A stretch of DNA of 64,000 bases, from positions 1,364,001 through 1,428,000 of the forward strand of contig JAHBBC010000010.1 in the NCBI GenBank assembly GCA_019915015.1. The letters are read 5' to 3'. A program made the translations under genes and the position numbers. Under the pieces are notes generated by a model. That model ran no database searches. It saw only the letters and a list, made by a program, of their open reading frames with translations, and was not told the DNA's origin. Positions 10,553 to 41,221 of the stretch are shown here, piece after piece (positions within the stretch are counted from its first letter, which is position 1; every line of letters starts with the position of its first letter). The DNA is from Auriscalpium vulgare. Taxonomy: Eukaryota; Basidiomycota; Agaricomycetes; Russulales; Auriscalpiaceae.

Positions 10553-13500
10553 ATGCCCCGCCGCAAACCCACGGGGATCAAGAGAAAGAGCACCGCCGGG
10601 CCCCGCGTCGCCTGTCGCGGGTGCCACAGGCTGTTTTGGCCATCTGGCCTCACGAAGCACCTCCGGCGCACGGCGCGCCCGCAATGCGTCCAATATTCCC
10701 GGGAGCGCCGCACGCCCTCCTCCGAGGAGGACGCGTCCACCACAGAAGCCTCCCAGTCAGAAGGCGAGTCGACCAGGCGCTCTCCTACGCGCTCCTCCCC
10801 GCCTTCAGAAGCTGCGAGCAGCGGCCGCCTTTCGCCGGACGACGAGGAGCCCGGACCTGCAGACCATCTGATGGACGTGGACCGTGGTACGCCCCCAACG
10901 TGTCTGCTGCTGTAGAGCCGTTCTCATGCCGCCTCTTGCAGTGGACGCTGCTATGCTCGCGCTATGGCCTGAGGGCAATCTGGCATGGGGCGAGGAGGAC
11001 GAAGACACTGTGCAAGCGGCAGCGCCCGACGAGGAGGATGGAGAGTCGCTGGGGTACGCATCCGACGATGCGGCGATGCAGGCCGCGTTCAACAACCCCG
11101 ACGGCGAGGTCCCTGCCGTGTTCTCCCCAGACCTTAACGCTGCCGATGCGCCAGAGCCCGAAGAGGACTTCCCGCTGCTCGACGAGGAGGAAGCCAACGC
11201 GCTCGCAGACCAGCAACGGGCGGCCGCAGACGAGCAAGTTCACGCGGACCCAAAGATTGTTCACTTCGGTGGCCAGGCTGGGGCGCCCCTCGCTCAAGAT
11301 GGTCAAGACGCTGCGGGGACGTACGCCGCATACCAAGGCGACCTGGCCGCCCACGACCCTGTGAACCTCTGGGCCCCATTCAGAAACAAGATGGAGTGGG
11401 AGATTGCACGGTGGGCGAAGATGCGGGGGCCCACGTCGACGGCATTCACCGAGCTCTTGCAGATCGCCGAGGTGCGCAACGCTGCCCTGCTGGCGTCTTC
11501 CCTGACATTGACCCGTCTCTCACTCCGCCAGGTCCGCGAAAGGCTAGACCTGTCGTTCAAGACCACGGGCGATATCAACAAGATTGTTGACACACAGCTG
11601 CCACCATGCGCCGAGTTCACCTGCGACGAAATCACCGTGGATGGCGAGAGCTACGAGCTTTACTCACGCGACATCATGCAGTGCATCCGGGAGCTCTACG
11701 GCAACCCGGAGTTCCTTTCTACGATGAAGTTTGCGCCAGAGCAGCACTACGCAGACGACGAACATGAGGTCCCGATCTACAGCGAGATGAACACAGGCCG
11801 CTGGTGGCATTCGATGCAGGTGCATCCACCTCCCTTCGTTGCGTTGCCCCTCCATGTCTAACTTGGGTGCAGACGCGCCTCGAGGCTCACACGCCAGGCG
11901 CTACGGTCATGCCCTTCATCCTGTCGTCGGACAAGACACAAGTGACCGACTTCCGTAACAAATCTGCGTATCCCCTGTACTTGACCATCGGCAATATATC
12001 CAAGGACGTCCGCCGACAGCCCTCCAAGCGGGCGCAGATCCTAATCGGCTACCTCCCTTCTGCTCGACTGTCCCACATCAAGGACGACGACACGCGCCGC
12101 CGCGCGATTGCAAACCTTTTCCACGCCTGTGTCCGCAAAATCACCTCTCCGACCCGCCCGCACGCCTTGGCAGGCATTCCGATGGCCAGCGGTGACGGCG
12201 TCGTGCGTCGCTGCCACCCTATCTTTGCGGTTTTCATCGGCGATTACCCAGAGCAGGTTCTGGTGGCCTGCGTCAAGTCGGGGGAGTGCCCCAAGTGCCA
12301 AGTCGACGCAGAAGACCTCGGTGTGCATGCGCAGGCTCCCACGCGAAGCATCGCGGGGGCGCGTGCCGCCTTGGGTACCCTGGACGATGGGGTGCAGGCG
12401 TACGTTCGGGCATGTCAGCATGCAGGCATCAAGCCTGTCTACCATCCCTTCTGGGAGGATCTGCCGCATTCCAATGTGTTCCAGGCCGTCACGCCGGACA
12501 TATTGCACCAGTTACACCAGGGCATTGTCAAACATCTACTCAGCTGGCTGACCGATGCATTCGGGGCGGAGGAGATCGACGCGCGGTGTAGCCGACTCCC
12601 GCCGAACCACAGCATCCGCATTTTCAAAAACGGGCTGTCCGTTCTCTCTCGCGTGTCTGGACAAGAGCACAAAGACATCAGCCGCATTCTCCTAGGCCTC
12701 ATTGTGGATCTCAACCCCCTCGCAGGCGTGCCGGCAGCGCATGTGGTCCGCGCCGTCCGCGCCCTCCTCGACTTTCTGTACCTTGCGCAGTACCCTTCCC
12801 ACAGCGAATCCACCCTCAAGTACCTCGAGAAAGCCCTGAAGGCCTTCCACACGAACAAATTCATATTCGAAGAGCTCGGCATTCGTCAAGGTTTCAATAT
12901 ACCAAAGCTTCACTCTCTCCTCCACTACGTTGCGTCCATCCGAGCGTTTGGCACAACCGACAACTACAACACGGAGGCCACAGAGCGCTTGCACATTGAC
13001 TACGCAAAGGACGCGTACCGCTCAACGAACCACAAGGACGTCTACCCCCAAATGACGCGGTGGCTGGTGCGCCGGGAGCAGATCCTTCGCCACACCAACT
13101 TCATCCGGTGGAGGGTTCAACAGGCCGCCAATGCCGTGGCTGCACCCGTCGTACGCCCACCCCGCCCCCGCTTCCATATCGCTCGCATCCCGAGCTTCAA
13201 GTCTGTGTCCTTCACGCAGCTAGCCACCCGCTACGGCGCCGTTGACTTTCGCGAGGCCCTGGCTGCCTACATCATCAAGGAGGTACACCCGCAATATTCG
13301 CCGGCGCACGTAGCTAATCTTGCACGCGACTACGACCTAACATTCCGTGCGGTCGCCACTTATAACTCGGTCAAGTTCTCGCTGGGGGACCCTCAAGACC
13401 GCGACGATGCGCCCGCCGTGCGCGATGCTGTGCACACGCGGCCCTCCTACCGCGATACGCGCGGGCGCGCTGTCCCTGGCCGCTTTGATACCGCGCTCAT

Positions 13501-21074: not shown

Positions 21075-21477
21075 TTGCAACGCGGCGAGCTCCGCGTCGC
21101 GCCCGCGTCGCGCTATTCGTGAGCTCTGCGTTCCAGAGTTCGAACCCGCTGGAGCGCGGGCTCTGAGGCGCGCGAGGCCCGGTGACGGGCAGAGGGTCGA
21201 GCGGGCGTAGATGTCGGACATTCGATGGTGGTATTGGCCATGCGGGGACGCCGAGGCGTATTCGGGTTGGATGGGGAGGGGAGATGGGTGGTAGAGGTGT
21301 GCGGATTCGTGTCGGGTCGTACGGGAGTCCAAGGGCGGTGGGGGTGGTCGTGGGCGTCGGTGTCTGGGTTGGTAGTGCCGTCGTTGGACTCTGCGTCGTC
21401 AAAGTCGCTACGCAGATGAAAGGAAGGTAGGAGGAGATGACAGCGCTGCTCAGCCTGCAGAGCGCGGTGAGCGGCAT
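21075..21477 (-). pseudogene. coiled-coil gene copy 2, 5' half (split by the Plavaka element)
   Basis: The sequence matches the N-terminal part of the intact gene at 39,345-41,221, including counterparts of ASASPHGQYYDRMSDIY and of the region around RGFELWNAEL. The segment for the coiled coil is deleted, and frameshifts are present. The first 35 bases align directly with 40,544-40,580, just inside the point where 6,160-7,025 stops. Confidence 0.65.
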
Positions 21478-23110: not shown

Positions 23111-23703
23111 GTTGTTGTCGGTCGGTGATATCTTCGACTCGGAGCTACAGAGTCGGATTCGCACTGAGTCACCGGTTGCGATGAGCGGCTTCTAATACTG
23201 GAGCCTTCGGTGGGACCAAAGAGGCTCGCCGCTGTGTGGGCAATGTAAGACTAGCGCGAAGGTACATGGAGAGAAGTGATGGCGAGTTGTTGTCGGTGAT
23301 ATCCTCGACTCGGAGTTCACAGAACTGGCGTCAGATTCATGAGTCACCGGTTGTGGCGAGTGGCTTCGAAAAGTAATAATGGAGCCTACGGCAGGGCCAA
23401 ATACGCTCGCTGCGTGGGTGCAACAGCACTGCCTGTTACTAGTGTCAATTAACAGGATATCGTGCCACACCTACGTTATGCACAGTGCGGATAGTATTCC
23501 GAGTCATAGACCTTGGATGCTACTTGGAAGCTATTCACTTGGCGAATATGAGCCACAACGTTTGCAAACATTCTACAGGCCGAGCGAACGTGCCAAACCA
23601 CATGGAAGCATTCAGTGACCAACCTCAATCAAAAGGTCACGGACGCACCTTATCCCCCGTAACTCGCACCGGCGCGTATGTGACACGATGGACTGCATAC
23701 CGT
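23111..23703. repeat. dispersed repeat, copy B, with a 174-bp tandem duplication
   Basis: Positions 23,285-23,703 match copy A at 1-430. A related unit at 23,111-23,284 precedes it, with a period of about 174 bp. The copy is interrupted at 23,703 by the LTR retrotransposon and resumes at 37,257. Confidence 0.75.
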
Positions 23704-24360
23704 TGATAGGTTCAGGCCGCGGGCAAGCGTGTAGCGAGACGTCGCGAGACGGGGAAGCAGCATGCGAGGCGCAGGGTCGCGGGAGCGGGGGTGATGGGAA
23801 CGTGGTCCGGCGACCCAGGAGCAACCGGGACTGGCGACGGAACGGATCACCGGAACGGGCTAGATCGGGAGGGCTTAGCGACGTAGGTAGAGCCACTACT
23901 TAGGGAGCTGCGCGAGACGTAGCAACCCAATCAACCTGTGGGCGGCGCAAGCCACCCACACCCTTTACCTCACAGAAACTGTAGCCTGAGGCGCTACCAG
24001 ACTTAGGAAGGAAGGACCCCACCGATGTGGGAACAGGTAGGCAGGCGGACAGGCAAGAGGGGGTGCGACGGCCCATAGGCGGATGCTTCGCACACGGGTG
24101 CGAAGCACTCGGAGGAGGATCCCGTAGGGGGCATCCCCAGGCAGGTGAGTGTTTAGTTTGGTGTTTAGGCGGTAGGAGGTGGCCCCGCACGACCGCGGGG
24201 AGGGCACGAAGCGCAACAGCGACACGAACACCTTCCCCCCTCAGCAAGACTAGTCACCCGGACTGGATCGCGACGTATAGGAGGCAGTGTTGGTGGTTGT
24301 TGTCCCGTGAGGCACTCGCCGCACGCCCCGCTAGGGTCCGTCCCGGGTGATAGCGTATCA
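23704..24360 (+). repeat. 5' LTR, 657 bp
   Basis: It starts TGATAGGTTC and ends GCGTATCA. It contains a 9-bp perfect hairpin (GCTTCGCAC, loop ACGG, GTGCGAAGC) at 24,085-24,106, and an intron-like GTGAGT...CCCCCCTCAG pair at about 24,146-24,245 that could splice the leader RNA. Confidence 0.93.
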
Positions 24361-24363
24361 TTT

Positions 24364-24380
24364 TGGAGCCCACCGCGAGG
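24364..24380 (+). other. candidate primer-binding site
   Basis: TGGAGCCCACCGCGAGG starts three bases after the 5' LTR. The leading TGG fits pairing with the CCA end of a tRNA, but I cannot say which tRNA. Confidence 0.5.
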
Positions 24381-24450
24381 GGTATGGTGATGACGATCGT
24401 GTTCGAGCTTTAAAATCAGCCTCGTAGACGGCACCCGGTCGCTGATCAAC

Positions 24451-27243
24451 ATGGCGCCGAAACCCAAGATAGCCCACCTCCCAACGCGAACACAGCCGCA
24501 GAGGACCACGAGGGCGGACGCTCGCAATACGTCGCGACAGGCGGCCATAGAGGCAGAAATCGAGGAACCACAAGACGAACAGGGGGAAGTCTCATCGCTA
24601 TCAAGCCTGCCATCAGAAGAAGAGGATCCGCATGGACCGACCCTCAGTAGGGAGATCCGACGCGCCGGAGAGGACCCTAGGTCCCTGATCACAGGAGGGG
24701 ATCGCGTCACGATCGAGGGACTAGAAGGCTTGCTTCTGAATTCTGATGGTGGCGATAGCGACCATCACACACGGCATGATCCGGAAGGGGAATGCTCGAG
24801 GAACGAACGGGTCAGTCCGGGATGGGGACGGGCCGTTTCCTTACAAGATAGGACTTCGCGAAACGTCGCGGAAGCTAGCAACAATCCCCAAGAAGCTCCA
24901 TCAAGCCGTTCGAACCCCAGCAACCCAAAGTCGCCAACACAGTCAGGAATGAGTACACAGCAACAAGGAACAGGAACGGGTGGAGGAGGCGGCGGCGGAG
25001 GCGGAGGCGGTGGAGGAGGGGGAGGCGGCGGACAACAGGCAATACCGCCTCAGCCCAACGTCGCGCCAGTCGCAATGCCTACCCGTGGGGACCGCAACGC
25101 ACCGTCTTTCAATCAGAAGGCCCGCGAGTTACCGCGTTACTTCGACGAGCTGAACCATCTCTTTGCCCGGGCTCAACTAGCGGATGATACGGCAAAGAAG
25201 GGCCATGCAGTGCGTTACCTAGACGTCGCGACGGCTGAGGAGTGGGAAGCGAGGCCGGAGTTTAAGGATCCCACCAAGACCTACCAAGACTTTCAGGACG
25301 CCATTGTTAAACTGTACCCAGGAGCCGACGAGGACCGCAAGTATACCATCGCGGACATGGACGCGCTCGTAGGCAGTCGGTACCGTCTGGGCATTGCGTC
25401 CGGCGGCGAGCTCAGCGAATTCTATCGGCAGTTCTTCGCGATCACCGACTTCCTGGTTAAGAAAAGCAGGATCTCGACCCGTGAGCGCGATATCGCGTTC
25501 CTTCGCGCTTTCCAGGACAGCCTCATGAACAGGGTGGCGACGAGACTGCAGATCAAATTGCCGGACCACGATAAAGAAACACCGTACCCCATGGCCGACG
25601 TGCTAGAGGCAGGAGAGTACGAGCTGAGGGGCACTCCCTCAATCGTACCAGCGGTCAGCGCAGGACCGGCAGTGGCGGTTGCAACGACGGAGCCTGTAAT
25701 CAAAATAGAACAGTTTCAAGAAGCAATCAAAGCCGCGGTTGCCGAACAGTTCGCGCGGATGCTCGTCAACCAGGGGAACGGCGGAGGTCAGAGGGGTTAT
25801 GGGGGTACCTCGGGAACTCAACAGCCGCGCGCCACGCAAGGAAATCAAGGCGGACAGGGAGGGCCGGCAGGATGCCTTTTCTGCGGCCAAACGGGGCACT
25901 TCGTCAGGGAATGTATGGTGGTCCAGGACTACATCGCGACGGGTCGCGTATCTAGGGACCACAACAACCGGGTCGTTCTGAAGGGTGGAGGGCTTATCCC
26001 GCTAGGAGAAGGCCCGCTGAAGCAGCGTGTGGATGCGTACTACGCCGGGAATCAACACGGACAGTCAGAAGCCATGATGCTGACGACGATGGACTACGAG
26101 CCAGTGCCGGCCAAAGTGCAGACGGTCGCCGGCCTAATCCAACTGACGCCGCAATTGACCGACGAAGACAGAATGACGGAGCTCCAGCAGGAGATGGCAG
26201 TGCTCCTGACGGCCCGAGCGGAAAGGCAAGCTCAGAAGGAACGCCGGCAGGCCGCACTGGACGCGGGCGAGTTTCCCCAGGCAATAGGGCTGCTGCCTGG
26301 CGAGCGCGAAAGATCGCGACGAGTTCCAGAGGTGGTCATTCCGAAGAGGAAGCCGTTTACGCAAGCCAAGAAGCAGGTTTCCTTCGAGCCGGAGGCCGTC
26401 GACCGACCAGGGGAGACGGGGGATAGCGCAGACAAACCAAGGCAGGCCGACGAAGACACCACAGCGGGTGAGGAGCCGTTAACACCTCCGATCCACCCTT
26501 TCGCGAAGGTGCCCGACGCGACGTACATAGGGCCGGCAAGTTACCAACGAAGCGCGGGGCAGCGCAAGGCGGACCCAGCATACAATAAGGTCGCCCCGGT
26601 CCGCGACCCCGTAATAGCAAGTAAGGTTTATGAGAGGGCCATGAATGCGGAGGTCACCCTGACACAGAGGGAGCTCATGTCCATTGCCCCGGAAGTACGC
26701 GCTCAAGTTCGCAACGTGGTGACCCCTAAGCGGGTCCCAAACGAGGCAAGAGTACCAGTAGTCCAGGCGATGGTGGAAAGCGAACCAGAGCTCTTTCCGT
26801 TCGACTTTGACCAGGACGAAGGGGAAGGAGAGGACGAGAAGGTGGTGAGGGGATTCGCGGACCATATGCCCGAAACCTTTCTGCAAGCCCTGGGACACCA
26901 GCCAACGGAGTTGCCCGAGGGGACGCGTGTAGGAGAAGTCATTGTGGAGGTTCTGATGGGAGATCTAGGAGAAGCAGGAGAAGGGGAACCAGCCCCTGAG
27001 CCGTTGGAAGTCGCCAAGGAATCGCTGGCCCTCCGTTCGATCTTGCCACTAGTCGACAACCAAGCGCACATCGAGGCAGTCGTGGATCCCGGGTCGCAGA
27101 TTATTTCCATGTCCGAGGACGTATGCCATTACCTCGGGCTGCATTACGATCCGAACGTTCGCCTGGATATGATATCGGCCAACAAAAGTCGCGATAGGTC
27201 GCTAGGCCTGGCTAGAAACGTCCCGATGAAGATTGGGGTATAA
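24451..27243 (+). CDS. gag: gag and N-terminal part of protease
   Basis: 930 codons from ATG (MAPKPKIAHLPTRTQPQ). The first 170 residues are charged and disordered, then comes a run of about 20 glycines near 24,977-25,032. The capsid-like region follows (RELPRYFDELNHLFARA, TYQDFQDAIVKLYPG). A CCHC zinc knuckle, CLFCGQTGHFVREC, sits at residues 475-488 and would bind the genomic RNA. A long acidic linker leads to the aspartic protease, whose active site reads VVDPGS near residue 879; DPG in place of DSG occurs in fungal gypsy elements. The frame stops at 27,243 in the middle of the protease; the rest continues in another frame. Confidence 0.9.
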   Translation: MAPKPKIAHLPTRTQPQRTTRADARNTSRQAAIEAEIEEPQDEQGEVSSLSSLPSEEEDPHGPTLSREIRRAGEDPRSLITGGDRVTIEGLEGLLLNSDGGDSDHHTRHDPEGECSRNERVSPGWGRAVSLQDRTSRNVAEASNNPQEAPSSRSNPSNPKSPTQSGMSTQQQGTGTGGGGGGGGGGGGGGGGGGQQAIPPQPNVAPVAMPTRGDRNAPSFNQKARELPRYFDELNHLFARAQLADDTAKKGHAVRYLDVATAEEWEARPEFKDPTKTYQDFQDAIVKLYPGADEDRKYTIADMDALVGSRYRLGIASGGELSEFYRQFFAITDFLVKKSRISTRERDIAFLRAFQDSLMNRVATRLQIKLPDHDKETPYPMADVLEAGEYELRGTPSIVPAVSAGPAVAVATTEPVIKIEQFQEAIKAAVAEQFARMLVNQGNGGGQRGYGGTSGTQQPRATQGNQGGQGGPAGCLFCGQTGHFVRECMVVQDYIATGRVSRDHNNRVVLKGGGLIPLGEGPLKQRVDAYYAGNQHGQSEAMMLTTMDYEPVPAKVQTVAGLIQLTPQLTDEDRMTELQQEMAVLLTARAERQAQKERRQAALDAGEFPQAIGLLPGERERSRRVPEVVIPKRKPFTQAKKQVSFEPEAVDRPGETGDSADKPRQADEDTTAGEEPLTPPIHPFAKVPDATYIGPASYQRSAGQRKADPAYNKVAPVRDPVIASKVYERAMNAEVTLTQRELMSIAPEVRAQVRNVVTPKRVPNEARVPVVQAMVESEPELFPFDFDQDEGEGEDEKVVRGFADHMPETFLQALGHQPTELPEGTRVGEVIVEVLMGDLGEAGEGEPAPEPLEVAKESLALRSILPLVDNQAHIEAVVDPGSQIISMSEDVCHYLGLHYDPNVRLDMISANKSRDRSLGLARNVPMKIGV

Positions 27244-27473
27244 CGCTATACGTACAGGTGCATATCATCCGCAACCCGGCGTACGACATGCTCCTGGGGA
27301 GGCCCTTTGACGTTCTCACGGGAAGTACCGTGCAAAACTTTGCAGACGAGAGGCAGACAATCACGATCACGGACCCAAACACGGGAGTCATGGCGTCAAT
27401 CCCCACTATTCCACGCGGCCGCAAGCGCATCTCGCGAACCCAGAAGCAGGGGGTGGAGGGTTTTCGCGACTAG
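27237..27473 (+). CDS. C-terminal part of the retrotransposon protease, in a different frame
   Basis: It reads through VQVHIIRNPAYDMLLGRPFD, the second half of a retropepsin (with the ILLGRPF-type flap), and ends VEGFRD at 27,473. It joins the gag frame at the GGGG run at 27,235-27,238 by a -1 shift. No classical slippery heptamer is present at that point, so a one-base deletion is the simpler reading. It has no start codon of its own at the join. Confidence 0.75.
   Translation, partial: GITLYVQVHIIRNPAYDMLLGRPFDVLTGSTVQNFADERQTITITDPNTGVMASIPTIPRGRKRISRTQKQGVEGFRD
27458..27464 (+). promoter_or_regulatory. candidate -1 ribosomal frameshift site, protease to pol
   Basis: GGGTTTT lies in the protease frame as G GGT TTT, nine bases before the stop, and fits the X XXY YYZ rule. 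A -1 slip leads directly into the pol frame. A 6-bp inverted repeat (GACCAG...CTGGTC) begins 23 bases downstream, further away than usual for a stimulator. Confidence 0.6.
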
Positions 27474-30400
27474 AGGATTTGTTGGAGGACCAGGAGGAGG
27501 TAGGGCTGGTCGTGGGGTTCGAGCCCGATAAGCCTGATACTCTTAGAATGGAATCCCTGGTGTACCTCGAATCCTCGCCTACAATCGAAGATGTGCAGTC
27601 AGCTTATTTGTCAGTGTGCGACCTACCGGAGGAATACGCGGGAGTGTTCGCGAAGCGAGCGGAAGAAGGAGAGGAAGAGGAGGAACGAGCAAGAGCAGGG
27701 ACGTTTATTTGGACGGCGGCAGACTGGGGAGACGGCGAGAGTGGGAGAGAAAGAGAGGAGGAAACGGACAGAGGTGAGCTACAGCCGACCGCGATGCAGC
27801 GGGAAGTCTTTGCGGCCACGAAGAAGCGTTACAAGCCAGCACACCTCAAGGTAAAGCCCATTCGTACGGACCTGCCGGAGCACTTCCGGATCCTCAGAGA
27901 GATCAGCGGGGACCCCCTGGCGGATATGCCGCCGCTCCCAGAGAAGCCACCGGACTTCGTACCCACGGGAAGGTACACCGCGGAACGTCGCGAACAATTT
28001 GACCGAGTCCACGACGGAGATTTCCTATGGCCGGAAGAAAGGAAGCTCATGCATGCGTTTATGTGCGCACAAAACGAGGCATTTGCCTGGGACGACTCGG
28101 AGCGGGGGCGCTTCCGAGAAGACTTCTTCCCCCCCGTCACAATACCAGTAGTTCCGCATCGGCCGTGGGTTCAGCGAAATATTCCGATTCCGCCAGGGAT
28201 ATACGACAAGGTCATGGCGCTCATCAAGACCAAGATCGCCGCGGGAGTCTACGAGGACTCAAACTCGTCGTACCGCTCTAGGTGGTTCTGTGTGGTTAAG
28301 AAGGACGGGACCAGCCTCCGTATAGTCCATAGTCTGGAACCCCTGAATGCGGTGACCATCGCGCACTCAGGAGTACCCCCCTTCCCAGATCATTTGGCGG
28401 AGCAGTTTGCGGGGCGGCCGTGCGGGGGAATTCTGGACCTCTACGTGGGCTATGACGAAAGGAGACTAGATGAAGCCTCAAGGGACCTCACGACTTTCCA
28501 GACGCCGTACGGCGCAAAACGGCTGGTGACCCTGCCTATGGGGTGGACGAATTCCGTCCCGATCTTCCACGACGACGTGACCTTTATTCTCCAACCGGAA
28601 ATCCCGCATATTACGGTGCCTTTTATAGACGACGTCCCCCTGAAGGGGCCGGACTCGGACTACAGGACGGAAGGCGGAGGATACGAAACGATCCCCGGCA
28701 ACAACGGCATAAGGCGGTTCGTATGGGAACACTTTAACAACGTTAACAGGGTAGTCCAACGAATGCGCTACTGTCATGGCACGTTCTCAGGATGGAAATC
28801 ACAGCTGTGCGTACCAGAATTCTACGTGGTAGGGCATCGCTGCACACCGCAAGGAAGGATGGCAGACGAAGAAAAGGTCGCGAAGATTCGCAATTGGGGG
28901 CCGTGCACGGACCTCTCAGACGTACGGGCTTTCTTGGGGACAGTCGGAGTCCTGCGCATCTTTATCCGTAACTTTGCGCACCGAGCCCATGCCTTGACAC
29001 ACCTGACGAGGAAGGACGTCCCGTTCGAATGGGGACCCGAACAGTCGCGAGCTATGGAGGACCTCAAGGAGGCAGTCCTCGCATCACCAGCGCTCCTACC
29101 GATTGATTACACGTCGGAGGCCCCCGTGATCCTAGCGGTAGACACCTCGTACATCGCGGTGGGTTTCCTATTGAGTCAGGCGGACCCCAACGTTCCCCAA
29201 GACAGGAAGAGACGCCGATATTCTCGATTTGGTAGCATCGCGCTAAACGATCGCGAAGCGCGGTTCTCGCAGCCCAAGCTGGAGCTCTATGGCCTTTTTC
29301 GAGCCCTGCGGGCCCTTAAAGTCTACCTGATAGGGGTGAGGAACCTGACCATTGAGGTCGACGCCAGGTATATCAAAGGCATGCTGGAAAATCCTGACCT
29401 CGAGCCATCAGCCAGTATGAACAGGTGGATTATAGGCATCCTGATGTTCCATTTTGAGCTAGTGCACGTGCCGGGACTCTTCCACGGGCCCGACGGCCTA
29501 TCCAGGAGGCGTAGGCAACCAGGAGACGCTCTGGAACAGGAAGACGACTTCGACGACTGGGTTGATGCGGTGTATGGTTTCGCACATATCGTAAACATGG
29601 TAGTCCCGAAGACAGCGCAAGAGAGAGCCTCGCGACGGCAAGATGGATGGACGGGGCCAGGAAGCATACCAGACGAACATGGGGCTGGTTCAAGCCAGGA
29701 CGCGATACGTCGCGAGGAGGCCCGGCGCTCCCACGATGAACCGGCCGACGTCTGGGCAACTACGGTCCAAATGCAACCCGCACCAGTACAGGACGCGACG
29801 TATCGCGATGTTCCCAGATCAGACAAGGCTCATGAAGCTGACAAGCGGCTGGAACTAGTCAGGGACTGGTTAGGGACCCTGGCGCGGCCGGCGGACTTGA
29901 CCGACGAACAGTTCGCTCGTTTCGCTCGATACGCGCTCCAGTTCTTCAAGGATGGGGACCGCCTTTTCAAAAGGCACCACCAAGGCAGGCACCAACTCGT
30001 GCTGGGAGGAGACCGACGTATCGCGGTCCTCAAAGCAGCTCATGACGATGTCGGACACAAAGGCGTCTACGCGACGCGGATGATGCTGTTGGAGCGTTTC
30101 TGGTGGCCATACGTGGACGCAGACGTGGCCTGGTGGGTGAGAACGTGCCATATTTGCGAAACCCGACTAGTTCGCCACAGCCTGATACCGCCAACGGTGG
30201 CAACGCCGGCGAACCTTTTCGCAAAGATGTATGCAGACACCATGCATATGCCAGCAAGCGGCGGATTCAAATACATCGTGCAAGGACGCTGCTCCGTAAC
30301 CCACTATCCAGAGTGGAGAATGCTAAGGGCGGAGACGGCGGACGCCATCGCGAAATGGATTTTCGAAGACGTCTTGTGCCGGTGGGGCGCCCTGCGAGAA

Positions 30401-31249
30401 GTGGTCACGGACAACGGCGCACCGTTCGTGTCGGCCTTGGAATCCCTGTCGCATAAGTATGGAGTCCGGCACATTCGAATATCGGGATATAATTCGCGAG
30501 CCAACGGAATAGTCGAGCGGTCTCACTTCGACGTACGTCAAGCGCTCTACAAGGCAGCCGATGGAAATGCTGCAAAATGGTCATCGGTTGCGTACTCGGT
30601 ATTCTGGTCGGACAGGATAACGATCAGGCGGAGGATGGGCTGCTCGCCATACTTCGCGGTAACAGGAACGCAGCCGCTAATGCCGCTGGATATCATCGAG
30701 GCTTCATACTTGATGCCTCCGCCCGAGTCTCTACTGTCTTCCACAGACCTCATAGCGCGCAGGGCAATGGCCCTACAAAAGAGAAAAGCCCAGTTAAGGA
30801 CCATCCACGACAAAGTCTTTGAAGCGCGACGTATCGCGGCGGTAAAGTTTGAACGTGACCACGAAGCGACGATTCGCGACTACAATTTCAAGAGAGGCGA
30901 CTTGGTCCTCCTACGGTTCACGCGGTACGAGAAGTCATTAGATCGAAAAATGCTTCCGCGCTACGATGGACCGTTCGTGGTAATTGGCCGACGGAAAGGA
31001 GGACCTTACGTGCTTGCGGACCTCCACGGTGCGCTCTTCGACCGACCGGTCGCGGAGTTTCGCGTCCTGCCTTACTTCGCGCGAACGAACATTGCGCTGC
31101 CAGAGTTGCCCGAATTTCTGGACGTCCCACAGTCCAGGGTGGACGAGCTACTTCATGAAGATAGGCAGGATCACGATGCCATTCATGAAGAGGAAGCAGA
31201 CGACCCCACCAGGGAAGACGATGACCAGGACGACGAGATCACCGTCTAA
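27464..31249 (+). CDS. pol: pol: reverse transcriptase, RNase H, integrase
   Basis: The frame is open from upstream of 27,464 to 31,249; the first ATG is at 27,548. In order: an acidic linker; reverse transcriptase with LRIVHSLEPLN, LPMGWTNS and the catalytic FIDD at about 28,622-28,633 (equivalent to YxDD); RNase H with ILAVDTSYIAVGFLLSQ and LELYGLFRALRALK; integrase with the HHCC zinc motif (HDDVGHKGVYATR through CHICE), then DDE residues in YADTMHMP, VTDNGAPF and NGIVERSHF. The C-terminus is acidic; I see no chromodomain. It has no own start near the frame beginning, so expression by frameshift is likely. No stops interrupt it. Confidence 0.9.
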   Translation, partial: SRLEDLLEDQEEVGLVVGFEPDKPDTLRMESLVYLESSPTIEDVQSAYLSVCDLPEEYAGVFAKRAEEGEEEEERARAGTFIWTAADWGDGESGREREEETDRGELQPTAMQREVFAATKKRYKPAHLKVKPIRTDLPEHFRILREISGDPLADMPPLPEKPPDFVPTGRYTAERREQFDRVHDGDFLWPEERKLMHAFMCAQNEAFAWDDSERGRFREDFFPPVTIPVVPHRPWVQRNIPIPPGIYDKVMALIKTKIAAGVYEDSNSSYRSRWFCVVKKDGTSLRIVHSLEPLNAVTIAHSGVPPFPDHLAEQFAGRPCGGILDLYVGYDERRLDEASRDLTTFQTPYGAKRLVTLPMGWTNSVPIFHDDVTFILQPEIPHITVPFIDDVPLKGPDSDYRTEGGGYETIPGNNGIRRFVWEHFNNVNRVVQRMRYCHGTFSGWKSQLCVPEFYVVGHRCTPQGRMADEEKVAKIRNWGPCTDLSDVRAFLGTVGVLRIFIRNFAHRAHALTHLTRKDVPFEWGPEQSRAMEDLKEAVLASPALLPIDYTSEAPVILAVDTSYIAVGFLLSQADPNVPQDRKRRRYSRFGSIALNDREARFSQPKLELYGLFRALRALKVYLIGVRNLTIEVDARYIKGMLENPDLEPSASMNRWIIGILMFHFELVHVPGLFHGPDGLSRRRRQPGDALEQEDDFDDWVDAVYGFAHIVNMVVPKTAQERASRRQDGWTGPGSIPDEHGAGSSQDAIRREEARRSHDEPADVWATTVQMQPAPVQDATYRDVPRSDKAHEADKRLELVRDWLGTLARPADLTDEQFARFARYALQFFKDGDRLFKRHHQGRHQLVLGGDRRIAVLKAAHDDVGHKGVYATRMMLLERFWWPYVDADVAWWVRTCHICETRLVRHSLIPPTVATPANLFAKMYADTMHMPASGGFKYIVQGRCSVTHYPEWRMLRAETADAIAKWIFEDVLCRWGALREVVTDNGAPFVSALESLSHKYGVRHIRISGYNSRANGIVERSHFDVRQALYKAADGNAAKWSSVAYSVFWSDRITIRRRMGCSPYFAVTGTQPLMPLDIIEASYLMPPPESLLSSTDLIARRAMALQKRKAQLRTIHDKVFEARRIAAVKFERDHEATIRDYNFKRGDLVLLRFTRYEKSLDRKMLPRYDGPFVVIGRRKGGPYVLADLHGALFDRPVAEFRVLPYFARTNIALPELPEFLDVPQSRVDELLHEDRQDHDAIHEEEADDPTREDDDQDDEITV

Positions 31250-31272
31250 AAAGTACCGCCCAACACTACGGC

Positions 31273-31308
31273 GACTGAGGACAGTCGATATTTCAGTTGG
31301 GGGGAGGA
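31273..31308 (+). other. internal polypurine-tract copy after pol
   Basis: 36 bases match 36,563-36,598, just upstream of the 3' LTR, in 29 positions, with an uninterrupted 16-base core TTTCAGTTGGGGGGAG. It sits just after the pol stop. It may prime a second plus strand or mark where the cargo was inserted. The rest of 31,250-31,721 shows no gene. Confidence 0.7.
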
Positions 31309-31721
31309 TTAGACGGTGGTATTTAGGACTGAACAGCTGGAAGTACGAATGGAGACGAGTCAGGACGATAAGTCGAGGTCGCGAGCGCTAGCGAAGCTCG
31401 GACTGGGCAGGCACCGACTAAGGCTTCAAGGGTCTGGAACAAGGCTGAGGTCGCGCCGGAAACGCGATAGGACACGCTCACACTGTGACACAAGCAATGG
31501 ACTCTATTCACAACATAGCAGGATAGCGAATTCTATGTACACAGCAAAGAGGTAGCGACGGATAGCGAACAACTATGAACAGACCGATAACGAGCGGACA
31601 ACACGACAGCGAGACGCCGAAACCCCCACCTAGGACACGAGGAACGCCCCCCGCATCGAAGCACCAAGGCCCTCTGCTGTTGAAGCAGGGGCGACTCCTT
31701 TTGAAGAAGGCTCGCAAGCGG

Positions 31722-33422
31722 CTAAGCGGCGGGCGCGGGGTCAGCGGGACCATCAGCCGCGGCGGAGGGCGGCGTGCCGACATCCTCGAAGAAGGGAGCG
31801 GCGGCGGTAGGCATGGTAGGGCCGGGGGCAGGGTCCGACGCGGGAGGAGCGGCAGCGGCGAGCGGCGAGAAGGGCGCGGCGGGAGCAACCGGAGGCACGG
31901 GGGAAGGAAGGCGAGAGGCGCGACCGACGAGAGGCACGACGGCGGCGCTAGGCAGCGGGAGGGAAGAGGCGATGAGAGCCGACGAGGGTGGCGCGAGGAG
32001 GAGGCGCGAGGCAGGCCTGGCCGGCGCGGGAGAAGAGGCGCGCAACGCGGGGGGAGCAGGGAGAGGGATGCGGCGCGGCGGATCGAAGGGGCCAACCTGC
32101 GGCGAGATGAGGCCCCCAGCAGGCGCAGGGAACGCGGGGTCGCCGAGCTGCTGCAGGGTCTGCCAGACCCAGTTCCGCTCAGCGACGATGCCGCGGGCCC
32201 GGGCGTCGAGCGTCGCGTAGTTGACGCTGATGGTGTTGAGCTCCTCCGTGAGCGCGTTGTAGGTCCGGAAAAGCTGCGGCGGGGAGTCGTAGCGGAGGAT
32301 GGGGACGGCGCCGGCAGGGTCGGGGTGGTCGGCCCAGTCGAAGGCGGAGGACCGGGGACGGACATGGATGCCGGCAGGGTCGACATCCTGCGAGACTCCG
32401 TCGCTGCCCACCACGTAGAAGTGCGTCCCGCGGACACCGTCGTCGCACTTGTGGTGGCCCACGAAGCAGCGATGGCACTGGCGGCCGCTGACGTCCGTGA
32501 AGAAGCACGTGGGGTGGGAGTCCATCGTGGCGCAGCGGTAGCAGGGGGCGGAAGCCTGAGGGTCGGAGTGTGAGCGGCGCAACACGACGGACAAGAAAAG
32601 GGCGACGTACCTGAAGGCGGCGGCCCGGGAAGGTGTCAGCGACGGGGATCTTGGCGCCCTTGACGGAGGTGGAAGGGTCGGCGGCGGGCGCGGGGGAGCC
32701 GGCCTCGGAAGAGGGGACAGTGGCGGCGGGCGGAGGCACGAGGGAGCCGGAGGGGACGTTGGCAGGGCGCTTGGAACTGCGGACGGCTTTGCCCTTGCCC
32801 TTCGTCTTGGCGGCGGCGGGGACTGATCGGGGGGCGGGGAGTTTGGTGGCGCCGCGGGTGCGCTGCGCGACGGGCTCCTGCGGGTCCCCCGCCTCATCTA
32901 GCTCGTCGACCTCGGCCTCGGCGTCAGCCTCGGAGGGGGCGGACTCGCGGTTGCGCTTGGTGGGCGGCGGGGAAGCGCGGGCGGCGGCGCGGTGAGGCGT
33001 GGAGGAGACCGGGGGGCGGACAGAAGGCGCGGGGAGGGCACTGTCGGCGCGGGCCCGCTTGCCAGCCTGACGGGAGAGAGGAGCGGCGACGGGAGTGGAG
33101 TAGGGGATGGCGGGTGAGGACGGCGTGGGGGAGGGGCCGGAGGACGGCCAGGCGTCGACAACGGCGGACACGGCCCCGATCCTGTCCAGCACCTCGGACG
33201 GCGGGGGGTCCTCCCCCAACGCCTCAGCATAGGCGGACTGGACACAAGGGAGGGTCAGCAGAGCGTCGGGAGCGAGAGGCCGTGGGCACTCACCGTGGCC
33301 GACTCCCAGTTCGCGGCGAACTCGCCGTAGTGGGCGGAGTCGACTGTGGGGAGGGAGGCGACGAGCGCTTCTACGGCGGACAGCCGTTTCCTGAGGTTGA
33401 TGGGGCGGGAGAACGCAGACAT
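31722..33422 (-). CDS. antisense cargo gene C: Zn2Cys6-like protein, 529 aa
   Basis: Three exons (33,422-33,294, 33,237-32,611, 32,555-31,722) are joined by 56- and 55-bp introns with CTGAC/CTCAC branch sites, all phase 0. The N-terminus MSAFSRPINLRKRLSAVEAL is probably helical. A long Pro/Ser/Ala-rich linker carries basic patches (KRARA, KTKGKGKAVRSSKR). At residues 257-289 there is CYRCATMDSHPTCFF...CHRCFVGHHKC, spaced CX2CX8CX9CX2CX6C. This is close to the fungal binuclear Zn2Cys6 cluster, but with 8 rather than 6 residues in the first loop. The rest is Pro/Ala-rich. DNA binding is inferred. The start was chosen at the ATG following a CT-rich leader; an in-frame ATG lies 23 codons upstream. 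Confidence 0.7.
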
Positions 33423-33701
33423 GGCCAGGGACGGGGGGAGATAGGGAGAGGTGAGGGGAGGAAAGAGAGAGACGGAGAGGTCGAGGCGCAACGCGTCGCG
33501 TTAAGACGGGGCGCCGCGCCAGCGTGTGGGTTTTTGCTTCCGACGTGGAAGCAGAGCGGGCCCGCCGGGCCGCGACAGGTGCGGCGCTTACCTTCCCACG
33601 GCTTAGCGAGCGTTCGCGCGCGAGTCAAGAAGAAGGGATAGGGAACGGAATGGCATTACTGGGCCCTAAGGGCGCCTTGGGCAAATTACAGGAATCGCTC
33701 G

Positions 33702-34883
33702 CTACGCGGGCGCACCGGACCCAGACGCACCATTGGGCGCGGGAGTCCGGGCGCGGTTACCCCCATTCCTACGACCAGCCCGTCGACTCAGGGCATCAGG
33801 AGGCCTCGGGCCCACGACCTCAACAAGGTTGGGGACCCCCCACGAGAACGCGATAGAGCCGCGGCGGATGACTCGGTGAGTAAGCGGCGGGAAGGGAAGG
33901 GCGGTAAGCATACGGCGCATAGGACCGGCACCGGCGAGGTGGTCGAGGACCGCGGCAACTTCGCAGGCATCGTACAGCAGCTTTCCCGCGGTGCCTTCGA
34001 GGCGAGTGACGGCGTGGCGCAGGTGGCTGGCGTTCAATTGGTCCGCCCAAACGAAGTCGCGAAGCTCCGCGACCAACTTGAGGCCGGGAACGAGATAGTC
34101 GGCGGCTTCACGGACGTTCGCACGATGGGCAGCCTGCAACGAGGGACTCGCGGCCGCAAGGAAGTCGAGGACGCCAATGTCGCGGGGGTGGGTCATTCCG
34201 ATCACGGCGCGGTTCAAGGGGAGCATGAGGGCCCCGACCAGCCCGTCGGCGTGGTCGAGGTCGTCACTCAAACGATCGAGGTCGCGGAGGAATAACTCGG
34301 CAACGCGGGTGGCAAGGCCGTCGGGACGGGGGGCAAACTCGGGGCCGAACAGCGCTGCCAAGTTGACCTCGAAAGTTGCCCGGCCGTGAAGTTGGTGACG
34401 GTACAGCAACCAAACGGAGCGCTCCACCAGGTGGGCCAAGGAGTCCACATGGACCACGTGAGGAAGCAGAGCGACGCTGGGTGGCTGCCCCGGGGCGTTG
34501 TCCCCTCCGAACGGAATATTTCCTACGATATTCGCGCGAATGGGGGCGGTTTGTTCGAACGTTTCGGGAAAGCGCTCCGCTAGGTAGGAGAGCGTCGAGA
34601 CGACGGTCATGGACGCGAGGGCCGGTAGGGTAAAATGCGACGTCTCGCGATGGTCCTGCTGAAAAGGGGGGAAGAAGCGAAGACAACGTCAGTACGAGGC
34701 CGGGATGAGGGAAAAGAGGGCCGCGGGACGACGCACCAATAGGTCGGAGATCTCCTGAAGCCAGGCAACGGCGGCCGCGGGAAACGAGGAAGCGTCGGCA
34801 CCAGGCAAGGGCACCTCAACCGGATGTATCAACAGCTGGTACAGCCGGAAACGCGAAAACGCGCGGAGTAGGACGGCCTGCAT
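33702..34883 (-). CDS. antisense cargo gene B, 367 aa
   Basis: Two exons (34,883-34,737 and 34,658-33,702) are joined by a 78-bp phase-0 intron (GTGCGT donor, CTGAC branch, TTTTCAG acceptor). A TATA-like CTATATGAGG lies about 70 bp upstream on the same strand. It starts MQAVLLRAFSRFRLYQLL and is mainly helical and leucine/alanine-rich (LAHLVERSVWLLYRHQLH, TRVAELFLRDLDRLSDDL), with a disordered basic C-terminus (RRAGRRNGGNRARTP). It has no signal peptide, membrane segment or catalytic motif that I recognise. It could be a distant relative of gene A, which has a similar helical layout and size. The function is unknown. Confidence 0.65.
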
Positions 34884-35222
34884 GTGGAGGAGGTAGTCGG
34901 GCGGACTGGGGCGTTGAGGGTGTTTTTGGAAAAGGCCATCGTCGCAGCCCCCTCATATAGGCGGCGCGAGTAGGGAAAGGGGCACACCATCGCGGCGTCG
35001 CGATACAGCGCGAAGACCAAAACATGAGGGTCTCGCCGGAGTTCCGGCCAACGTGGGTTATCGCGACAGATCGCGACCCAGACGGAGCCTCCGGCATGGG
35101 CCCAGGAGCTTATCGCAAGGCATCGCGAAACGTGGCACAGGGACAGGGGGAAGCCGCACATGGCTCCTGGTTCCATTTCAATAGCTATGGAACATTCTAC
35201 AGACATTGGCCCGGGAATATAC

Positions 35223-36471
35223 CTATTCCTCGCGCTCCATCAGAAGCTCGATCACCTCCCCCTCCTCGACTTCTTCCGAGCTGGCGATGGGCGGCGGTAT
35301 CTCCCCGGCGTAGGTAGGAGACGCGGAGGGGGCCGTCGGCGCTGGTACCGTGGGGTGCGCGGGGAAGGGAAGAGGGCCCGGCTGGTCCGAGGGATGGACT
35401 ATGGCATCGAAGCCTAGGGGTATCTCAGCTATGGCTTGGGAAGAGGAGATGTGCGAGAGGCGCGCAGAACTGATCTGCTCGATGGCGCGAATCGAGGCCA
35501 CGCTGATATCCTGGACCAGGAAGTCTGCGGGCTGGAGGTTGGCCAGGAGGCGGGACCCTAATCCCCATGCGTCCAGCATCCCGCCCATACAGGTTGCCAT
35601 CGCGGCCCAGCGCATGTCGAGGCGATCCAACACCAGTGGCCAGTCCGCCCAAATATCGCGAAACGTGTCGAAGGCCTCGGAAATGGTGGTAAAGTCCCGT
35701 AACATATCCACCGAGTCCTCCGCGAGGCCCCCCAATAGGTAGTACACCACGCCCGTGGTGAGGCGGCCCGCGTAGGCACGAGAGTGGGGGGAGCTGGAGG
35801 CACCACGGACGTGGTAGGCCAGGGCGCGGCACACGGCGTCTTCGCGGGTAATAACAAACATCCCATGGACGGCCCGGGCGTCGAAATCACGTAGGAGCCA
35901 GCTCTGCATCCCCTGAGGACGCAGGGTGGGGAAGGCGCCATGCAACTCCGTGATTTCATGGAGGTAGGATTCGACAGAACCGTCTCCGAAGTAGTACACG
36001 GTCCAGAGCCCAGCCTCCACGATGGTGATCAAGACGTGGAGTTCCGCGTCGGTAGCGTCGGCAGGGAAGGGGGAGAACATCTGGGACCACCGCGGGCTGG
36101 CGCGCGCTGAGTCGGGGAGGGTACGCATGAGGGTGCCCTCGAAGCGCTGGGCGAGAGGGGCGGACGCTGGAACGAGCTTCACCATGAACTCGAGGATCGG
36201 CGAAGTGAAGTGGAAGGCAAGATCGCGCAGGCTGCGGGACGCGCGGATTGAAGAAAGGGTCTGGAATTGAGTTCATCATCAGCCAATCCGGGAAAAGACG
36301 CGGTCGGGGACCAGCACGCACCACGAGCTGGTTGACTTTGTCGGCCCACTCTAGACGTAGCGCAACCTCCCGTTCGGCATCCCCAAGGTCAAAACCAGCG
36401 AAGGGGGCCTGCGTCAACAGGCGGAGGAGGTCGAGGTTGTCGGCGGTGGCAGACGCTGCGGGGAGGGACAT
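35223..36471 (-). CDS. antisense cargo gene A, 395 aa
   Basis: Two exons (36,471-36,322 and 36,260-35,223) are joined by a 61-bp phase-0 intron (GTGCGT donor, CTGATGA branch, CCAG acceptor). The TATA box CATATAAGGG lies at 36,531-36,540, 60 bp upstream of the ATG. It starts MSLPAASATADNLDLLRLL. The body is helical with hydrophobic stretches (VLITIVEAGLWTVYYFGDG, GVVYYLLGGLAEDSVDML), then a Pro/Ala-rich segment and an acidic end (SSEEVEEGEVIELLMEREE). I do not recognise the family. It is the cargo gene nearest the 3' LTR and is transcribed away from it, so minus-strand promoter activity would start just inside the LTR. Confidence 0.7.
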
Positions 36472-36562
36472 CGCGGGACAGAAATCGGCAAAGGGATGCT
36501 ACAAGCGACGTTATCGCGAAAGGTCGCGACCCCTTATATGCCGCTTCCGCACGGTTCCTGGC

Positions 36563-36599
36563 AACTGGGGACAGTTGCAGTTTCAGTTGGGGGGAGAAA
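36563..36599 (+). other. polypurine tract before the 3' LTR
   Basis: GGGGGGAGAAA (36,589-36,599) directly abuts the 3' LTR, the standard place for priming plus-strand DNA synthesis. It is preceded by the block repeated at 31,273. Confidence 0.8.
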
Positions 36600-37256
36600 T
36601 GATAGGTTCAGGCCGCGGGCAAGCGTGTAGCGAGACGTCGCGAGACGGGGAAGCAGCATGCGAGGCGCAGGGTCGCGGGAGCGGGGGTGATGGGAACGTG
36701 GTCCGGCGACCCAGGAGCAACCGGGACTGGCGACGGAACGGATCACCGGAACGGGCTAGATCGGGAGGGCTTAGCGACGTAGGTAGAGCCACTACTTAGG
36801 GAGCTGCGCGAGACGTAGCAACCCAATCAACCTGTGGGCGGCGCAAGCCACCCACACCCTTTACCTCACAGAAACTGTAGCCTGAGGCGCTACCAGACTT
36901 AGGAAGGAAGGACCCCACCGATGTGGGAACAGGTAGGCAGGCGGACAGGCAAGAGGGGGTGCGACGGCCCATAGGCGGATGCTTCGCACACGGGTGCGAA
37001 GCACTCGGAGGAGGATCCCGTAGGGGGCATCCCCAGGCAGGTGAGTGTTTAGTTTGGTGTTTAGGCGGTAGGAGGTGGCCCCGCACGACCGCGGGGAGGG
37101 CACGAAGCGCAACAGCGACACGAACACCTTCCCCCCTCAGCAAGACTAGTCACCCGGACTGGATCGCGACGTATAGGAGGCAGTGTTGGTGGTTGTTGTC
37201 CCGTGAGGCACTCGCCGCACGCCCCGCTAGGGTCCGTCCCGGGTGATAGCGTATCA
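36600..37256 (+). repeat. 3' LTR, 657 bp
   Basis: Same length and, as far as I can read, the same sequence as the 5' LTR, with the hairpin at 36,981-37,002. It is followed by the CCGT target duplication. Confidence 0.93.
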
Positions 37257-37340
37257 CCGTTTCAAAGTTAGACGTTAGCTACGGAGACTATGTTGCGAAG
37301 GCTCCGGCGTGATGCCAACATCAGTCGGAGTCGTGCTGGC
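37257..37340. repeat. continuation of dispersed repeat copy B
   Basis: The sequence after the CCGT (for example ACGGAGACTATGTTGCGA and TGATGCCAACATCAG) matches copy A at about 430-482. The LTR element therefore inserted inside this repeat. From 37,341 to 37,916 I see no gene, only the hairpin listed next and an A/T-rich stretch. Confidence 0.7.
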
Positions 37341-39344: not shown

Positions 39345-41221
39345 TCACTCGTCCAAGAATTCCGTCACGCTGTCGAGGACGACCTGCGGCTTGAGCAACA
39401 AGGTGCGCTCGAGCTCGCCCTCCGCGCTCGAATCCGCTCCCTTTCTCCGCGCGCGCACCATCTCCAGGCCGAAAGCCGTCGTGCACAGCACGCCCGCCTG
39501 CTCGCTCCCAAAGCCCGCATATACGTTCTGCATCGTCGCAGGGTCGAACATCCCCACTTCCCCGTCCCCCTGACCGTCGTCCCCGTCCTCGCTCCCGACG
39601 TCCTCCGCCCAGCCCCGCAGCCCGCGCAGCGTGAGCCCGCGCGGCGCCGGCACACGCACGGGCGCCGCGCGCACCTCGAACCACGCGCTGCGCACGCCCT
39701 CGCGCACATCTCTTGCCAACTTCTCCGCGCGCTCGCCGATGTGTGCCAGCGCGTCGCCGAAGCGGTCCCCGAGCGGCTCCGCCTGCGCGGCGGGGTCCGT
39801 GCAGCCCGCGAGCGCGAGCAGCGCGCGCAGGGCGTGCACGCCGACGGTGGATGATGGAGACGCGGAGGATGTTGAGGACGTGGACGGCGCGGAGGCGAGC
39901 GCGGGCGCGGGCGGGAGGAGGAAGATGTGCGGCGCGGGGGTGTTGTTCGTCGTGGCGGGCGGGGTCGGCAGCGGGTTCAGGGCGATGGGGGAGCACAGCG
40001 CGGACGATGCGCCGCTCATGCTCATGCCCGAGTAGCTGAGCGAGAGCGCGGGCGCGACCGTGCGCGCGTGCTTGTGCGTGAGCGCGCGCCAGCGCGACGT
40101 CACGGGCTGCAATTCTGGCGACCAACGAACAGATGAGTGGGGGGTTTTCTGGTGTGGAGCAAGGCTGACCACGTACCAGACGCCTGCATCTCGCGGAAGA
40201 CGGCCTGCATGAAGCGGTCGGCATCGGGCGGCATGCCCGCGCAGAACGCATCGAGCGTCTGGCGGCACGCCCACACGGCCCACGCCTGCACGGCGAGCTG
40301 CACGACGGTCGGGTCGTCCGCGTGGTCGCGGTCGCGCAGCAGCGCTAGCAGGCCCGGGCCAAGCGCGTCGCCTACGAGTGCGCAGTCCGCACTGGCGTCC
40401 GCGTCCATGTCCGTATCCGCGCACCGCGCGAGCTGGAACTCGTCGGCGACGGCCGCCGCGAGCTGCATGATCTCCGTGTTAAGGTCCTGCACGGACTGCA
40501 CGAGCTCCGCGCCGGTGAGGTCGTCCGTCTTGTCGTGGAAGGAGCGCAGCGCGGCGAGCTCGGCGTCGCGCTCGTCCGTCGGTGCAGGCGGTGGCGGGGG
40601 CTGGGGCGTCGGGGCGGGGGCAGGCGTCGGGGCGCGGCGGCGCTCGGCCCAGGCGTATGCCTCGGCGAGCTGGCGGTGCAGCTGGCTGTTCTGGTGCGCG
40701 AGCTCCTCGTTCGCCTCGCGCAGCATGCGGAGCTCCTCGCGGTCGGCGTCGGACTCGCTCTGCATCTCGGCCATCTCGTCCTCGAGCGTCTTGAGCTTCT
40801 TCATGAGCTCTGCGTTCCAGAGCTCGAAGCCGCGCGAGCGCGCAGGCTCTGGGAGGCGCGCGAGGCCGGAGGCAGGGGAGCGCGGGGGTTCGCAGAGCGT
40901 CGAGCGGGGGTAGATGTCGGACATTCGGTCGTAGTACTGGCCATGCGGGGACGCCGAGGCGTATTCGGGGTGGTGGGGGTCGAAGAGGTAGTCGGGCTCT
41001 GCGGGGTGGATGGCGGGAGGGGAGATGGGGGGTGGAGGTGTGCGGATTCGCGTGGGGCCGTACGGTGGGAACGGGCTGCGTGGGCGGTGTGTGGGGAGGT
41101 CGTAGGCGTCGGTGTCGATGCTGGCGGTGCCGTCGTCGGACTCTGCGTCGTCAAAGTCGTTGTAGACGCGGATGGACGGGAGGTAGGAGGAGATGACGGT
41201 CCAGAGCGCGGTGAAGGACAT
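39345..41221 (-). CDS. coiled-coil protein, intact copy, 604 aa
   Basis: Two exons (41,221-40,177 and 40,114-39,345) are joined by a 62-bp phase-1 intron. It starts MSFTALWTVISSYLPSIR; an acidic, Pro-rich region follows, then a strong coiled coil (LMKKLKTLEDEMAEMQ, DREELRMLREANEELAHQ). After a Pro-rich hinge comes a helical domain (TGAELVQSVQDLNTEIMQL, LARCADTDMDADASADC). The C-terminal part (ALAHIGERAEKLARDV, AWFEVRAAPVRVPAPRG, CTTAFGLEMVRARRKG) seems folded and ends TEFLDE. It is cytoplasmic or cytoskeletal in style, but I do not know the family. Two broken relatives lie in this window (892-2,179, and 6,160-7,025 with 21,075-21,477). Confidence 0.75.

Follow-up and report, generated by a model that had tools for sequence, protein, structure and literature searches.

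Within the 64,000-nt window analyzed here (the whole stretch of DNA under study, positions 1,364,001–1,428,000 of contig JAHBBC010000010.1, C10 below, of the 51.6 Mb, 96-contig genome of the basidiomycete Auriscalpium vulgare), there is a 13.55 kb Ty3/Gypsy retrotransposon (23704-37256) that carries three antisense, intron-containing genes, denoted A, B and C, between pol and the 3' long terminal repeat (LTR; Table 1). Splicing of the minus strand yields open frames of 395, 367 and 529 codons, respectively, with GT-AG borders at all introns, and these models exactly reproduce those of the first-pass annotation, which had been made from the sequence alone. The two 657-nt LTRs are 100% identical, as was also claimed there, which points to a recent insertion. 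The direct orientation of the LTRs, their TG...CA ends (TGATA...TATCA) and the short target-site duplication (CCGT at 23700-23703 and 37257-37260) are those of a Ty3/Gypsy LTR element, and the domains of Pol follow the order reverse transcriptase, RNase H, integrase, as in Ty3/Gypsy (Metaviridae).

Table 1. Features of the Ty3/Gypsy element, in window coordinates
Feature	Position	Strand	Details
5' LTR	23704-24360	+	657 nt
gag open reading frame (ORF)	24451-27243	+	zinc-knuckle and aspartyl-protease matches weak, below Pfam cut-offs
pol ORF	27479-31249	+	above Pfam cut-offs: RNase H (residues 518-652), then integrase zinc-binding (847-896); below: RVT_1 (307-387), rve (917-1005)
First module	31272-31307	+	hairpin 31272-31287, tract 31294-31307; just after pol
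Gene C	33422-31722	-	exons 33422-33294, 33237-32611, 32555-31722
Six-cysteine cluster of C	32445-32543	-	all cysteines of the window C model
Gene B	34883-33702	-	exons 34883-34737, 34658-33702
TATA-like box of B	~34952-34959	-	-76 of B, window family
Gene A	36471-35223	-	exons 36471-36322, 36260-35223
TATA-like box of A	~36531-36538	-	-67 of A, window family
Second module	36561-36599	+	hairpin 36561-36578, tract 36584-36599; abuts 3' LTR
3' LTR	36600-37256	+	657 nt

The 5,350-nt segment that follows pol occurs in at least 28 places of the genome at 99-100% identity (28 places scored of 95 candidates, the window copy included), in agreement with the earlier proposal that the gene set is mobile with the element. 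At least 5,348 query bases are covered in 27 of these copies and 5,015 in the remaining one. The frame of B is intact in all 28 copies, that of A in 24 and that of C in 23, and all three are intact together in 19. The GT-AG borders are retained in 28/28 copies at three introns and in 27/28 at the fourth; the only exception is the intron of A in copy L036, which is unaligned there.

Selection was assessed by comparing the observed changes with their random placement at sites with the same three-base context, using 27 copies for A, B and C and 25 for the end of pol. Copy L036 was left out of this and of the six-frame test, and L016 and L034 were additionally dropped for pol because their sequence left of the segment does not belong to the window family; when no copy is dropped, there are 87 single-copy changes in A (59 of them not synonymous) and 472 in the pol end. 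Among the changes common to at least two copies, the nonsynonymous/synonymous counts are 3/11 for A (p 0.0014), 2/8 for B (p 0.0032), 22/18 for C (p 0.06) and 4/9 for the pol end (p 0.010). The corresponding counts for single-copy changes are 19/15 (p 0.065), 9/12 (p 0.029), 23/23 (p 0.001) and 10/23 (p 0.0002). When all six frames are compared, the predicted frame is depleted in amino-acid changes for each gene (p 0.002); the opposite-strand frame that shares its third positions is depleted as well (p 0.004, 0.010 and 0.038), and the remaining four frames are not (p at least 0.85). Purifying selection thus acts on A and B, and the evidence of constraint is weaker for C. The alternative raised in the first-pass annotation, that the ORFs arose by chance, here in GC-rich DNA, is ruled out by the intact frames, the selection and frame tests, and the homologues in two other element families described below. 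A sense-strand ORF that overlaps gene C (31575-32573, +, 332 residues) is probably a by-product of GC-rich coding.

When exon 2 of A was searched against the genome, 120 matches were obtained, of which 67 show 73-100%, 10 show 32-33% and 43 show 24-31% identity. One place of each distant kind was read, and the two families thus identified are referred to as 33 and c. In both, a Ty3 pol lies on the strand opposite to A-, B- and C-like genes that follow the same order as in the window. The identity to the window pol is 69% over 1,228 aligned positions in one and 66% over 722 in the other; local matches to the window A show 29% and 26% identity, and whole alignments of A between families 22-31%. 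The genes are enclosed by LTR pairs, namely eight pairs about 13.4 kb apart in family 33 and a pair 13,517 nt apart on C10 in family c, with 18 matches of the second-LTR kind in all; as in the window family, the three genes lie antisense between pol and the 3' LTR. BLAST with the window B or C gave no match in either family. The B genes of families 33 and c were assigned by similarity to the A and B genes of these families, intron and place, and the C genes by the cysteine cluster, intron and place. The B exon of family c was met again at 85-100% identity, and that of family 33 at nine places. The TATA-like boxes reported for A and B were recovered in the window family, where the scan found none for C; in families 33 and c, the same scan gave a single match, CATAAAAG, at -46 of one B gene, and none at the remaining A and B genes.

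Homologues of A are also present among the annotated proteins of Auriscalpium vulgare: P0001 corresponds to the window family (88% over 170 residues), and P0002-P0004 correspond to family c (73-87%). In the annotations of P0001 and P0003, the splice junction is the one predicted here. Within the close relatives to which the protein search was limited, homologous proteins were found in Auriscalpium vulgare only. Further related families, with an A-like gene or a family-33-like LTR, are probable at C19 (162604-163083, with an LTR-like match at 163471, 71%), C10:333018 and C44:93939. A Ty1/copia RNase H end at L038:1-426, considered as a sign of sharing between superfamilies, lies outside the family c LTR and is a neighbour only.

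A and B are paralogues. All six A and B genes of the three families contain one phase-0 intron after codon 49 (50 in the window A), although that of the family c genes was picked among several possible ones. In Smith-Waterman comparisons (z against 100 shuffles; w, window family), the A genes are clearly related to each other (A_33/A_c 69, A_w/A_33 30, A_w/A_c 28), as are the B genes of families 33 and c (57; B_w/B_33 4.3, B_w/B_c 4.2). Similarity extends across the two genes, with z of 22 for A_33/B_c, 17 for A_c/B_c, 15 for A_w/B_c, 11 for B_33/A_c, 10.5 for A_33/B_33, 7.6 for B_w/A_c, 6.1 for B_w/A_33, 5.1 for A_w/B_w and 1.8 for A_w/B_33. The C genes of all three families share a conserved cysteine cluster with the spacing C-x2-C-x8-10-C-x9-C-x2-C-x6-C, and the end of an intron lies just ahead of it. 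All cysteines of the window and family c models, exactly six in each, fall within this one cluster, and the partial family 33 model has one more; around the cluster, the similarity between families 33 and c is strong (z 38). The fungal Zn2Cys6 binuclear cluster (PF00172), in which six cysteines bind two zinc ions, has the pattern C-x2-C-x6-C. The first loop of the C cluster, with its six conserved cysteines, is longer, and the Zn_clus profile gave no match for the C pieces.

Flanking the gene block are copies of a module that consists of a covarying hairpin and a polypurine tract of the form CAGTTGGGGGGAGR. There are two such modules in the window family and three in families 33 and c, where the third lies between B and A, about 115-120 nt upstream of the B start. 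Of the 28 window-family copies, 25 share an identical first module and 24 an identical second module. Among eight modules, 3 of the 6 hairpin pairs have changed on both sides, and pairing holds in 89.6% of cells, compared with 21-45% when the hairpin is slid; the covariation score was reached by none of 500 shuffles, and the number of both-sided pairs by 11 of 500. Genome-wide, there are 266 occurrences of the tract pattern, compared with 3 of its reverse. The 100 tract places listed (of the 266) form 48 groups, 16 triples, 20 pairs and 12 singles, and 13 of the pairs among them are spaced 5,281-5,292 nt apart, like those of the window. That A and B are paralogues, each with an adjacent tract in two families, suggests that a unit of gene and tract was duplicated. 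The interior of family 33 also contains one tract with two mismatches and no hairpin, which was not counted as a module. In a subfamily at C1:3697895-3699781 and C7:74304-76126 (A 86-88% identical), tracts about 1.8-1.9 kb apart surround an A-like gene that overlaps a match to the tail of C, in frame at C1; perhaps this subfamily results from an internal deletion that fused A to the end of C.

Two copies of the window-family pol, on contigs C88 (4483-12695) and C18 (976892-981379), seem to lack the antisense block, as judged from coordinates. In C88, both LTRs are listed, 7,556 nt apart, whereas the spacing in nine other pairs is 12,896-12,900 nt; the pol match, which is 51 nt shorter, ends at 11,975, and the LTR starts at 12,039. 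The C18 copy lies on the minus strand, with the end of the pol match at 977,612 and the start of the LTR at 977,548. The distance from the end of the pol match to the LTR is thus 64 nt in both copies. The first tract of the window element starts 48 nt beyond the pol match, and the LTR 16 nt after the start of the second tract; the spacing of 64 nt therefore equals 48 + 16, the register of the first tract joined directly to the LTR. In this search, 37 of 663 pol candidates and 40 of 160 LTR candidates were scored. Given that two copies seem block-less, one of them with both LTRs, the antisense block may not be needed in cis.

The retention of all three genes, in an unchanged order, in two related families makes the A-B-C set look like a durable component of the element and not an accidental one. 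The first-pass annotation suggested that the set is mobile and useful to the element, for example in control of expression, targeting or defence; this is partly supported, by the spread of the set with the element, the purifying selection on A and B and its presence in two other families, which speak for no particular one of these uses. We propose, as the account that is on balance probable, that the set has long been an accessory-gene module of a fungal Ty3/Gypsy lineage, in which it tunes element expression or integration, and that the block can be lost through its tracts. Regulation of the element is the most likely function of the three proteins. Under this scenario, transcription of A, B and C would start from minus-strand promoters of their own. 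Since splicing of the sense genomic RNA does not remove antisense introns, minus-strand genes are carried whole, and the antisense orientation would let both introns and promoters survive passage through that RNA. C would be a zinc-cluster-like, nucleic-acid-binding regulator, with A and B as its putative helical partners, and the set would be able to act in trans. The repeated tracts would offer reverse transcriptase the homology to jump between them, which would explain the block-less copies: the block could be lost as a unit by tract switching and perhaps gained or duplicated likewise. A broader version, which we consider plausible but short of probable, holds that the whole post-pol region is a modular array of antisense blocks delimited by hairpin and tract that are gained, duplicated and dropped by reverse transcriptase switching, with a B-plus-tract unit giving rise to A plus tract, block-less copies arising by the same process, and the proteins serving full and block-less copies in trans.

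Several observations weigh against the proposed accessory module. None of A, B and C matches any Pfam family (window pieces at E-value 1, four A and B sequences of the other families at E-value 10), the predicted structures are poor (pLDDT, the predicted local distance difference test, of 56), too poor to take functional inference further, and fold searches with them gave nothing reliable. Window B is weakly similar to the other B genes and window A does not exceed shuffles against the family 33 B; window C is weakly similar to the other C genes (z 5.5 and 4.3), and its N terminus cannot be aligned to those of the other families. C is also broken in 5/28 copies, and its shared changes avoid amino-acid replacement less clearly than those of A and B (p 0.06). 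As for the tracts, the middle one is absent from the window family, the hairpin was derived from the same sequences on which its pairing was counted, which favours it, and the block-less junctions are known from coordinates, not from sequence letters.

The apparent block-less copies, the weak constraint on shared changes in C and the failure to find a function for any of the three genes would fit passengers, that is, host genes caught once by an ancestor of the element and riding along without use to it. Passengers, however, would hardly leave recent copies with A and B under purifying selection, or three families with the same order and introns when the identity of A has fallen to 22-31%; moreover, no single-copy homologue resembling a host gene stood out among the 120 A, 50 B and 74 C matches (exon-piece queries, contexts partly read), and we regard such a capture as distinctly unlikely. 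The low conservation of A relative to pol (66-69%) would instead be in line with proteins that shield the element from silencing by small RNA, methylation or related defences and diverge fast as a result. Within a family, however, A and B are constrained rather than fast, no domain matches any known factor, and ordinary accessory proteins would fit the rapid divergence as well, so that counter-defence appears unlikely, if somewhat less so than passive carriage. In other retroelements, antisense transcripts can act as regulators without coding for protein (PMC7264820, in its accessible part), and the conserved feature might then be antisense transcription or the DNA itself. Given that changes avoid amino-acid replacement in the predicted frames and that the families share protein similarity with frames and intron position kept, this would be very improbable.

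The plant Ty3 elements Retand, Grande and RIRE2 also have coding regions in antisense between pol and the 3' LTR (PMC11963269, PMC7264820), and according to the accessible part of PMC11963269 these regions are conserved and present in every recently active Retand-type cluster surveyed. The arrangement described here resembles that of the Retand lineage in position but differs in content. A TRP28 domain (PF04195) is reported in 97% of plant Retand-type cases (PMC11963269, accessible part), whereas TRP28 matched neither the A, B and C pieces of the window (E-value 1) nor the four A and B sequences of families 33 and c (E-value 10). Furthermore, there are three genes here, two of them paralogous, and all have introns, which the accessible parts of PMC11963269 and PMC7264820 do not mention for the plant genes. 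For the Grande antisense gene, the same parts report its own promoter and a nuclear product. Fungal examples are the Boty-like Ty3 elements of Botrytis and Sclerotinia, which carry the antisense gene brtn, likewise between pol and the 3' LTR (PMC7264820, PMC8365987, PMC4227169, accessible parts); they differ in having one antisense gene rather than three, and an ascomycete host.

More than one polypurine tract is known in Sireviruses, Athila4/Calypso, Ty1 and HIV-1, and in Sireviruses the terminal tract has an inverted repeat (PMC2829016, accessible part). The upstream tracts of Sireviruses, however, are described there as clustered near the 3' LTR and without an inverted repeat, whereas here every tract, including the internal ones, is accompanied by a covarying hairpin, and the tracts flank the antisense genes. 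In bdelloid rotifers, LTR retrotransposons have gained accessory ORF3s after pol that are enzymatic or env-like, and the accessible part of that account mentions no antisense trio (PMC5408684). In a literature search, with subscription journals mostly outside its reach, we found no earlier description of a basidiomycete Ty3 element with three antisense genes, nor of three spliced antisense genes, two of them paralogous, flanked by hairpin-bearing tracts. The plant reviews, in their accessible parts, treat as open where the antisense accessory genes of LTR retrotransposons come from and what they do. A fungal lineage that keeps three spliced antisense genes and a repeated structured primer site provides a comparative system within one genome, with recent insertions, three diverged families and apparently block-less copies, which would allow testing what the antisense genes do for the element and whether polypurine tracts are joints for gene loss and gain.

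Elsewhere in the element, gag, which ends at 27243, and pol, which starts at 27479, are in separate frames, with no overlap as listed. The stretch 31308-31560, just after the first module, might be a remnant of an old LTR. TCGCGA motifs are spread throughout the element. On both sides, it is flanked by direct repeats (21116-21407 and 40800-41159) that are 87-90% identical and lie about 19.7 kb apart.
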